This document shows positions 22,290-24,785 of a stretch of DNA of 64,000 nucleotides, in pieces. Within the stretch, counting starts at the first letter, position 1, and each line of letters starts with the position of its first letter. The DNA lies in the NCBI GenBank assembly GCA_019166125.1, contig JAHTBO010000001.1:535066-599065 (forward strand). The letters are read 5' to 3'. This DNA comes from Alcaligenaceae bacterium CGII-47. Lineage in GTDB: Bacteria > Pseudomonadota > Gammaproteobacteria > Burkholderiales > Burkholderiaceae_B. The notes under the pieces were generated by a model. The model did not search any database. It saw only the letters and a program-made list of their open reading frames with translations, and had not been told where the DNA came from. A program made the translations under genes and the position numbers.

Positions 22290-22817
22290 ATGCGTTTAAC
22301 GACTAAAGGGCGTTTTGCAGTTACCGCCATGATCGACTTGGCGTTGCGCCAACATAGTGGCCCGGTGACGCTGTCTGCGATCAGCGGGCGGCAGAATATT
22401 TCACTCTCGTATCTTGAGCAATTATTTGGCAAGTTACGGCGCCATGAACTGGTCGAGAGCGTGCGCGGCCCGGGTGGCGGGTACACTCTAGCGCGTTCGG
22501 CGCGTCATATGACGGTTGCTGATGTGATTTTTGCCGTAGATGAACCCTTGGATGCGACCAGTTGTGGCGGCAAGGAAGATTGTAACGTCGGTCGTAATGG
22601 CAGTGCGGGCAAATGCATGACGCATGACCTGTGGGCGACACTTAGTCATAAAATGGTAGAGTATCTGGATTCGGTGTCACTGCAGGATTTGGTTGATCAA
22701 CAGCGCATGCGCCAACTGCATGAATCCACGCAGGCTCGTATGACCATCCCGATCGTACCGGTGTCCACTAAGGATGGCGCACAGGCGGCAGAGCAATACG
22801 AGCCAGCCTCAGTATGA
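22290..22817 (+). CDS. iscR: Fe-S cluster-responsive transcriptional regulator IscR
   Basis: 175 residues, Rrf2 family. The N-terminal winged helix is typical (MRLTTKGRFAVTAMIDLAL, ISLSYLEQLFGKLR, VRGPGGGYTLAR). Cluster ligands are Cys92, Cys98, Cys109 and His112 (MTHDLW). In E. coli IscR the third cysteine is at 104, so five extra residues (within NVGRNGSAGK) lie between the second and third cysteines. IscR with a [2Fe-2S] cluster represses its own operon through type 1 sites, one of which is present upstream. iscS follows 15 nt after the stop. Confidence 0.95.
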   Translation: MRLTTKGRFAVTAMIDLALRQHSGPVTLSAISGRQNISLSYLEQLFGKLRRHELVESVRGPGGGYTLARSARHMTVADVIFAVDEPLDATSCGGKEDCNVGRNGSAGKCMTHDLWATLSHKMVEYLDSVSLQDLVDQQRMRQLHESTQARMTIPIVPVSTKDGAQAAEQYEPASV

Positions 22818-22832: not shown

Positions 22833-24044
22833 ATGGATCAGTCCCCCGTTTACCTGGATTATTCCGCCACGACACCTGTCGATGAGCGCGTACTTCAGGC
22901 AATGATTCCCTGGCTGACTGAGCGCTTTGGCAATGCGGCCTCGCGCAGCCATGCTTATGGGTGGGATGCCGAAGATGCGGTCGAACGCGCACGCGCGCAG
23001 GTCGCAGCTTTGGTGGGTGCCGAGACGCGTGAAATTATCTGGACCTCGGGTGCGACCGAGGCAAATAATCTGGCGATCAAGGGGGTTGCTCAGTTTCATC
23101 GTGATCGTGGCCGCCATATTGTGACGGTGCGAACTGAGCATAAGGCGGTATTGGACACCTGCCAGGAATTAGAGCGCGAGGGCTTCGAGGTGAGCTATCT
23201 TGACGTGCAAGAAGACGGCTTGCTTGATCCAGAGGTATTCCGGTCGGCCTTGCGTCCGGATACCATCCTCGCCTCAGTCATGCTGGTCAATAATGAGATC
23301 GGTGTGGTGCAGGATATCGCTGCATTGGCGGCAATATGCCATGAGCACGGGGTGGTATTTCATTCTGATGCGGCGCAGGCGACGGGCAAGGTCGTTATTG
23401 ATGTGGCTGCGATGGATGTCGATCTGATGTCGTTTTCAGCCCATAAGACCTATGGCCCCAAGGGGGTGGGGGCTTTGTATGTCCGACGTAAGCCTCGTAT
23501 TCGACTGAACGCCCAAATGCATGGGGGCGGACATGAACGTGGCTTGCGTTCAGGCACCTTGCCAACGCATCAGATCGTGGGTATGGGCGAAGCCTATGAG
23601 CTGGCAGGGCAGCTTATGGCGACGGAAATCGCGCGTGTACACGGTCTGCGTGATCGTCTATGGAAAGGTTTACAGACGATCCCTGATCTGTATCTCAATG
23701 GTACGCTCACGCAGCGTATCGCGCATAATTTGAATGTTAGCGTCGCCTATATCGAAGGTGAAGCCTTACTCATGTCTGTACCAGAGCTGGCGGTATCAAG
23801 TGGGTCGGCATGCACCTCGGCAAGCCTGGAACCCTCTTATGTACTGCGCGCTCTGGGGCGTAGCGACGAGTTAGCCCACAGTTCCCTACGTTTGACCATA
23901 GGCCGCTACACAAGTGAGGCGGATATTGATTTTGCGATTACACTTTTAAACCGTCAGATCGCGCGCCTGCGTGAGATTTCTCCGCTGTGGGAGATGCATG
24001 AGCAGGGCGTCGATGTCGGTGCGATGCAGTGGGCTACTTTGTAG
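22833..24044 (+). CDS. iscS: Cysteine desulfurase IscS
   Basis: 403 residues from the ATG at 22833, preceded by GGAG at 22821-22824. Class V PLP enzyme: N-terminus [40 protein letters not shown] lysine in [15 protein letters not shown], and catalytic Cys in [14 protein letters not shown] on the mobile loop. It removes sulfur from cysteine as a persulfide and passes it to the scaffold and to tRNA thiolation enzymes. The C-terminal tail ([14 protein letters not shown]), which binds the scaffold in E. coli, is present. Everything needed for activity is visible, unlike its neighbour scaffold gene. Confidence 0.97.
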
Positions 24045-24054
24045 AGGGCGCGCC

Positions 24055-24438
24055 ATGCTGTATAGTAAAAAGGTACTCGACCACTACGAGAACCCGCGAA
24101 ATGTCGGGTCGTTCGACCCACTGGATGCATCCGTTGGCACAGCGTTGGTTGGCTCGCCTGCATTGGGTGAGGTGATGAAGCTACAGATTCGTATCGATGC
24201 CTCAGGCACGATACATGAAGCTTGTTTTCGAACTTTCGGTTGTGGTTCGGCTATTGCGGCGAGTTCGCTCGCTACGGTTTGGCTACAGGGCAAGTCACTT
24301 GACGATGCTCTGGCCATCAGTAATCTGGATATTACGCAGGAGCTAGAGCTCCCGCCCCTAAAAGCGCATTGCGCCATGCTGGCAGAGGATGCCATCCGGG
24401 CAGCAGTGCGTAATTATCAGCATAAGCATCAGAGGTAA
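24055..24438 (+). CDS. iscU: IscU-like Fe-S scaffold protein lacking Cys37 and Asp39
   Basis: 127 residues from the ATG at 24055, aligning without gaps to E. coli IscU. IscU uses Cys37, Asp39, Cys63, His105 and Cys106 to assemble clusters. Here Cys63 (FGCGSAI), His105 and Cys106 (KAHCAML) are kept, but position 37 is Leu (VGSPALGEVMK; codon ttg at 24163-24165) and Asp39 is Glu. A new cysteine appears at position 57 (EACFRT), six residues before Cys63. The HscA-recognition motif LPPVK is LPPLK. It is not SufU, which has an insertion and lacks His105. It is either a variant scaffold with altered ligands or one that relies on another IscU elsewhere. Located between iscS and iscA. Confidence 0.85.
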   Translation: MLYSKKVLDHYENPRNVGSFDPLDASVGTALVGSPALGEVMKLQIRIDASGTIHEACFRTFGCGSAIAASSLATVWLQGKSLDDALAISNLDITQELELPPLKAHCAMLAEDAIRAAVRNYQHKHQR

Positions 24439-24441
24439 ATT

Positions 24442-24765
24442 ATGGGAATTGTTCTCACTCAACAAGCCGCCGATCATATCAATCGTCACCTTGAAAAGCG
24501 TGGCAAAGGTCTGGGCCTGCGCCTGGGGGTGCGCCCAGCTGGATGTTCAGGCATGTCTTATCAGCTTGAGTACGTCGATGAGCAGGGTGCCGATGATCAG
24601 GTTTTCGAGCAGTTCGGCGTACGTGTTTATATTGACCCCCAGAGCCTGCCTTATCTGCAAGGTACCCAGCTCGACTATGCGCGCGAAGGCCTGAACGAAG
24701 GATTCAAGTTCTCGAACCCCAATGAAAAGGCCTCCTGCGGTTGCGGTGAATCATTTACCGTCTGA
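24442..24765 (+). CDS. iscA: Iron-sulfur cluster carrier protein IscA
   Basis: 107 residues, A-type carrier. The three conserved cysteines are present: one in PAGCSGMSY and two in the C-terminal SCGCGESF. IscA accepts or delivers [4Fe-4S] clusters to target enzymes. It starts 3 nt after the iscU stop. It is the last gene of the operon here: hscB, hscA, fdx and iscX, which normally follow in betaproteobacteria, are absent, and convergent lysS begins 20 nt later. Confidence 0.95.
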
Positions 24766-24785
24766 TTGGGCACGACAGTGCGGCG

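Follow-up and report, generated by a model that had tools for sequence, protein, structure and literature searches.

The window, by which we mean the whole 64,000-nucleotide stretch of Alcaligenaceae bacterium CGII-47 DNA that was analysed, contains an isc operon of the order iscR-iscS-iscU-iscA, followed by lysS on the opposite strand; hscB, hscA and fdx are absent between iscA and lysS. The IscU encoded here lacks Cys37 and proteins of this kind are referred to below as IscU*. The features are as follows.

22290..22817, + strand: iscR, Rrf2-type regulator
22833..24044, + strand: iscS, cysteine desulfurase; active-site loop and C-terminal tail present
24055..24438, + strand: iscU*, an IscU without Cys37, 127 aa (translation, phmmer, NCBIfam, predicted fold)
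24163..24165, + strand: codon 37, ttg, Leu; Cys in 32/32 sampled genomes classed hscBA-plus
24169..24171, + strand: codon 39, Glu; Asp in 32/32 sampled genomes classed hscBA-plus
24223..24225, + strand: codon 57, tgt, Cys; a recurrent Arg-to-Cys change and no conserved ligand
24241..24243, + strand: codon 63, Cys kept (translation)
24349..24363, + strand: LPPLK, residues 99-103 (translation)
24367..24372, + strand: His105-Cys106, kept (translation)
24442..24765, + strand: iscA, A-type carrier; cysteine motifs present
24766..24785, no strand: iscA/lysS junction, where hscB-hscA-fdx sit in relatives G122, G124 and G201

The order uvrB ... iscR, iscS, iscU, iscA was found in all 37 family regions inspected (four with and 33 without hscBA-fdx), with a phosphatase gene between uvrB and iscR that was missed in one of them (G056). 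In the four inspected regions that retain hscB-hscA-fdx, these genes lie after iscA in every case. lysS was downstream on the opposite strand in 30/37 regions and was not found in the stretch inspected for G199, G074, G125, G126, G183, G207 and G208. The cluster motif of the IscR at 22290-22817 is C-x5-C-x10-C-x2-H, with ten residues between the second and third cysteines, a spacing shared with G124, a relative with an intact ISC system; in E. coli IscR the spacing between the second and third cluster cysteines is shorter.

No gap is needed to align the window IscU with residues 1-126 of E. coli IscU (2l4x_A), and translation and phmmer confirm the residues reported by the first-pass annotation: Leu37, Glu39 and Cys57, with Cys63, LPPLK, His105 and Cys106 kept. 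The HscA-binding motif of E. coli IscU is LPPVK. The best NCBIfam model is IscU (TIGR01999) at 185.6 bits, under the equivalog cut-off of 192.4, and AlphaFold2 predicts an IscU-type fold (mean pLDDT 96.4) that superimposes on E. coli IscU from its complex with IscS (3lvl_A) with a TM-score of 0.95. By sequence and predicted fold the protein is thus a member of the IscU/NifU_N group, with two of the three ligand cysteines (63 and 106) present, Leu at the position of the third, and Glu in place of the Asp39 of IscU scaffolds. It is not a SufU, scoring 39.7 bits against a cut-off of 92.5 and having LGE instead of CGD. A sequencing error at position 37 can be dismissed because Cys37 is missing in all 10 genomes of the genus. 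No close relative with normal Cys37 and Asp39 was found among these 10, and sampled family IscUs with both residues normal come only from genomes classed as keeping hscBA-fdx.

Relocation of hscBA-fdx to another part of the genome was considered and rejected, as HscB, HscA and the isc ferredoxin, and also frataxin, gave no match over cut-off anywhere in the window's genome. HscA was over cut-off in 0/10 genomes of the genus and in 1/14 control genomes of the genus search. The first-pass annotation had raised the question of a second IscU, NifU or SufB: SufB and SufU are present, and no second IscU or NifU was found, the only other NifU_N protein in this genome being a single SufU encoded beside SufS and SufT. 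All three exceed their NCBIfam cut-offs and the SufU carries the Cys-Gly-Asp motif; the order of the suf region (L138) by inspection is regulator-sufB-sufC-sufD-sufS-sufU-sufT, with sufB confirmed by model. The earlier suggestion that this is not a normal scaffold is therefore supported: Cys37, Asp39, HscB, HscA, the isc ferredoxin and frataxin are gone while a SUF system is present, and, judged from these gene and residue patterns, the protein is unlikely to be a normal scaffold.

Distribution of Cys37 and hscBA-fdx in the family

SufB was matched in 77 of 268 family genomes (75 over cut-off) and HscA was over cut-off in 185/268. Eight of the 77 (G122, G124, G129, G199, G201, G204, G205 and G206) also had HscA, HscB and isc-Fdx over cut-off. 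In the remaining 69, here termed hscBA-minus, all three were under cut-off, with the absence of HscA judged from best E-values that were all weaker than or equal to DnaK-level hits and with 13 of the 69 genomes less than 90% complete. CyaY (frataxin) was present in the same eight SufB genomes with hscBA and in 3/3 SUF-minus controls, and was missing in 68/69 hscBA-minus genomes. The single hscBA-minus genome with frataxin, G202 (L144), has a copy that scores below those of its relatives, and looks like a recent transition. The assembly-specific module of hscBA, fdx and frataxin therefore tends to go together, while iscR, iscS, iscU and iscA stay.

Cys37 follows the same division. It is absent from all 64 hscBA-minus IscUs read, namely 63 tabulated sequences from 18 genera and that of G178 (Gln37), and present in 32/32 sampled genomes classed as hscBA-plus, a sample of eight genomes with SUF and 24 SUF-minus genomes, of which 22 have HscA over cut-off by E-value and two (G136, 1.8e-209; G227, 1.4e-203) are apparently under it, HscB and Fdx having been searched in three SUF-minus controls of which only G217 is in the sample. 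In one hscBA-plus member, G225 (L121), a frame break in the contig, perhaps a sequencing error, interrupts a canonical IscU; this genome is counted in the tables of 32 and excluded from the conservation sets of 31. Besides G178, the hscBA-minus genomes outside the table are G235 (an IscU fragment without position 37), G063 (an IscU match whose sequence was not retrieved) and G179, G184 and G224, in which no IscU was recognised and which are only 72-82% complete.

Asp39, Cys63, His105, Cys106, Lys103 and Gly38 are each likewise present in 32/32 of the hscBA-plus sample; the counts among the 63 hscBA-minus IscUs are 10, 50, 60, 51, 56 and 63 respectively. Neither Cys63 nor Cys106 is left in eight genomes, seven of which have a cysteine-free IscU. 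Loci without Cys37, Cys63 and Cys106 are L091, L108, L122, L125, L162-L164 and L166. Cys37 is replaced by T, L, Q, E, S, N, D, G, I, V or A, and since the replacing residue varies, the shared feature is the absence of cysteine at this position. Among 93 positions conserved in hscBA-plus IscUs, only Cys37 is kept in none of the 63, the next-lowest being Asp39, and it is the sole position changed in all eight less-diverged groups (hand-picked from the 12 genera with an IscS tail). The three g32 genomes share Cys37 as their only conserved-site change, and G125 has five changes that include it. If changes fell evenly, the chance of one named position being hit in all of G185, g32 and G125 would be 6e-5, or about 0.006 for any position, both rough values given uneven change among sites and a hand-made choice of lineages. 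These comparisons suggest that, of the conserved residues, Cys37 was lost first. Relative to the loss of hscBA-fdx, no intermediate genome was seen, so the sample gives no order for the two losses.

A rooted IscS+IscA tree calls for three changes of hscBA state, one each for G185, the g32 trio and the large clade to which the window's genus belongs. This tree comprised 79 of the 94 family rows of a quick tree and seven outside loci, in which hscBA was assumed present; the outgroup was imperfectly separated (G142 fell within it) and many inner branches were weak, and the splits defining the three losses had bootstrap values of 98-100. The quick unrooted tree of 94 rows gave four changes. On these topologies, hscBA-fdx was lost at least three times. 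A single loss of Cys37 may account for the large clade, so that the 64 Cys37-less genomes represent far fewer than 64 events; in sister-pair tests of hscBA against Cys37, three of three pairs agreed (p 0.25), too few for significance.

An IscU that is changed yet retained looks peculiar to the window's family, as judged by IscU scores. Of 399 genomes sampled across the order, to which this family contributed 13, 15 had no match to the IscU model, and the other E-values, in a listing read by eye, were either about 1e-62 to 1e-70 (canonical-like) or above 1e-16 (the SufU-like level), with intermediate values only in G000, G113, G075 and G076, the four hscBA-minus family genomes of the sample, and in G548 from another family. 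The match in G548 (family f41; 1.5e-44) could reflect a truncated or altered protein. No description of this IscU pattern was found in the open literature searched, most subscription papers lying outside that search.

Selection on iscU and the putative interface with IscS

In pairwise codon models, median dN/dS for hscBA-minus IscU was 0.08-0.22 across ten genera, compared with 0.006-0.039 in six groups of hscBA-plus IscU. Pairs with dS outside 0.05-2.5 were dropped, leaving 37 of 89 hscBA-minus IscU pairs (9/45 in the window's genus), and all 37 rejected dN/dS = 1, with a lowest LRT of 13.6. IscS is also somewhat relaxed in hscBA-minus genomes (0.03-0.06 versus 0.014-0.033). There were no stop codons inside the IscU matches of the 18 hscBA-minus genera, and Pro14, Gly18, Gly33, Gly38, Phe58, Gly62, Ile67, Ala68 and Leu97 are kept in 63/63 sequences. 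The iscU gene of hscBA-minus genomes is maintained under purifying selection, with weaker constraint than canonical iscU.

IscS is a candidate partner. One study of the E. coli proteins places the contacts of IscU with IscS at Tyr3, Tyr11, Gly38, Val40, Lys42, residues 59-64 and Lys103, and finds binding abolished by K103E or by removal of IscS residues 376-404 (PMC2854127). In the window's genome the IscS-contact residues and the IscS C-terminal tail are kept, and Tyr3 (97%), Gly38, Gly62 and Lys103 rank with the best-conserved residues of hscBA-minus IscUs. By a motif rule the tail is kept in 33/63 hscBA-minus genomes, the rule also passing tails about two residues shorter in 7/10 genomes of the window's genus. 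It is lost in the other 30 genomes, covering six of the 18 genera (g4, g17, g20, g27, g28 and g42), so that IscS binding can be no shared role there unless the binding mode has changed. Examples of tail-less IscS are L147, L187, L189, L190 and L146, and IscU is most diverged in such lineages. In genus g42 both the tail and Lys103 are lost (7/7 tabulated, in one of which only the tabulated IscS was judged) and the role of IscU there must therefore differ or be fading.

Conservation of the interface was also considered as proof of IscS binding and is too weak for this: where the tail remains, contact residues are kept at an identity of 0.89 versus 0.84 for other conserved sites (p 0.28; similarity p 0.10). 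Where it is lost, contact residues are marginally better kept than other sites (p 0.049 for identity and 0.024 for similarity).

Possible roles of an IscU without Cys37

We propose that IscU* is a scaffold retired after a takeover by SUF and retained for a function other than scaffolding, partnership with IscS being the likeliest, a reading to which we give a probability of roughly 55%. SUF (represented in the window's genome by SufB, C, D, S, U and T) was probably gained by an ancestor within the family, after which at least three descendant lineages would have dropped the hscB-hscA-fdx block from the isc operon, with frataxin also lost in all but one genome checked and various other residues taking the place of Cys37. 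A protein that lacks Cys37, and in most cases Asp39 too, should have no hold on the assembly-site metal or on a [2Fe-2S] cluster, and for this reason Fe-S assembly would pass to SUF; the iscU gene would be kept because its product still does something else. The most likely such role would be to bind IscS at the normal site, limiting access of other sulfur acceptors, for example TusA, and tuning sulfur flow, as a Cys37-less IscU still bound to IscS would be a non-accepting competitor. In E. coli, IscU displaces TusA from IscS and alone has little effect on IscS activity (PMC11302665).

One alternative is passive decay, in which SUF makes the clusters and a redundant IscU erodes slowly, losing Cys37 first, then Asp39, Cys63, Cys106 and the tail of IscS, until the gene itself disappears. 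The graded series from the single shared conserved-site change of the g32 trio to cysteine-free proteins would fit this, as would dN/dS values several-fold above those of canonical IscU, which partial decay would give, the loss of the IscS tail in six genera, the three genomes in which no IscU was recognised, and the finding that sampled members of the order's other families have, by score, mostly canonical IscU or SufU-like matches only. However, those three genomes are the incomplete ones noted above, and against decay stand median dN/dS of 0.08-0.22, rejection of neutrality by every usable pair, matches free of internal stops across 18 genera, the nine residues invariant in all 63 sequences, and the fact that Cys37 is never kept when Cys63 and Cys106 mostly stay. 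We consider decay rather unlikely, though a rival to be taken seriously. A persulfide relay, in which IscU* takes sulfur from IscS on Cys106 and Cys63 and passes it to another acceptor without metal, would account for the frequent retention of Cys106, Cys63 and His105, and work on mouse ISCU identifies C104, the equivalent of Cys106, as the persulfide receptor (PMC6687725). The sulfur acceptor role suggested by the first-pass annotation is in this sense open to most lineages; it is closed to the eight genomes that retain iscU despite having neither cysteine. The same source reports no persulfide transfer by mouse ISCU without metal, for which C35 is needed, and of the exposed cysteines of E. 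coli IscU it is Cys37 that lies closest to the IscS loop and has been proposed as first acceptor (PMC2854127), with another paper calling the sulfur-accepting IscU residue in E. coli not known (PMC9769115). A relay is, on balance, improbable.

A re-designed cluster or iron site built from Cys57, Cys63, His105 and Cys106, the changed ligand set of the first-pass annotation, is less probable by far. Cys57 does occur only in Cys37-less IscUs (25/63 hscBA-minus versus 0/32 hscBA-plus), but it is patchy, with 11 parsimony changes on the tree, and it outlives Cys63 in five genomes (G114, G115, G123, G228 and G230). Codon 57 is usually Arg (CGC or CGT), from which one C-to-T transition (CGY-to-TGY) gives Cys, and in the predicted model the position is mid-strand (52-61), outside the cysteine loops. 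Residues 37, 39 and 57 do not co-vary as a set, 29 distinct combinations occurring among the 63 hscBA-minus sequences. Cys57 as a replacement ligand was rejected on these grounds; the residue most plausibly reflects a frequent mutation that selection has ceased to remove. A role as Fe donor is also unlikely because Zn or Fe is bound in mouse ISCU by C35, D37, C61 and H103, which are assumed to correspond to positions 37, 39, 63 and 105 (PMC6687725).

Returning to the retired scaffold, a more tentative extension, less likely than not, is that the loss of Cys37 was itself adaptive, being selected whenever the chaperone, ferredoxin and frataxin module was dropped and giving, at least three times independently, a non-accepting IscS-ligand pseudo-scaffold that governs sulfur traffic; some lineages would then have ended in an IscU without any cysteine. 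The window's IscU* is like IscU of the E. coli and mitochondrial type (TIGR01999) in best-scoring family by sequence and predicted fold, in operon position and in neighbourhood, but is without Cys37 and Asp39, falls under the equivalog cut-off and comes from a genome in which HscB, HscA, isc-Fdx and CyaY were not found. SufU (TIGR01994), a zinc-dependent sulfurtransferase, offers a parallel as an IscU relative that is no scaffold, although it keeps the Cys37 and Asp39 equivalents (CGD) that IscU* does not. The degenerate A-type domain of NfuA likewise keeps an Fe-S carrier fold after loss of a ligand cysteine (PMC8593673), but is fused to an active domain, whereas IscU* is a stand-alone scaffold homologue in the isc operon.

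These genomes provide a natural experiment on a protein that has been studied for a long time: among those read in the family, the presence of Cys37 matches the hscBA-fdx class with no exception seen. If purifying selection maintains an IscU without Cys37, in some cases without any cysteine, this protein would have a function beyond scaffolding, and the annotation of an IscU does not mean that there is a working ISC pathway.
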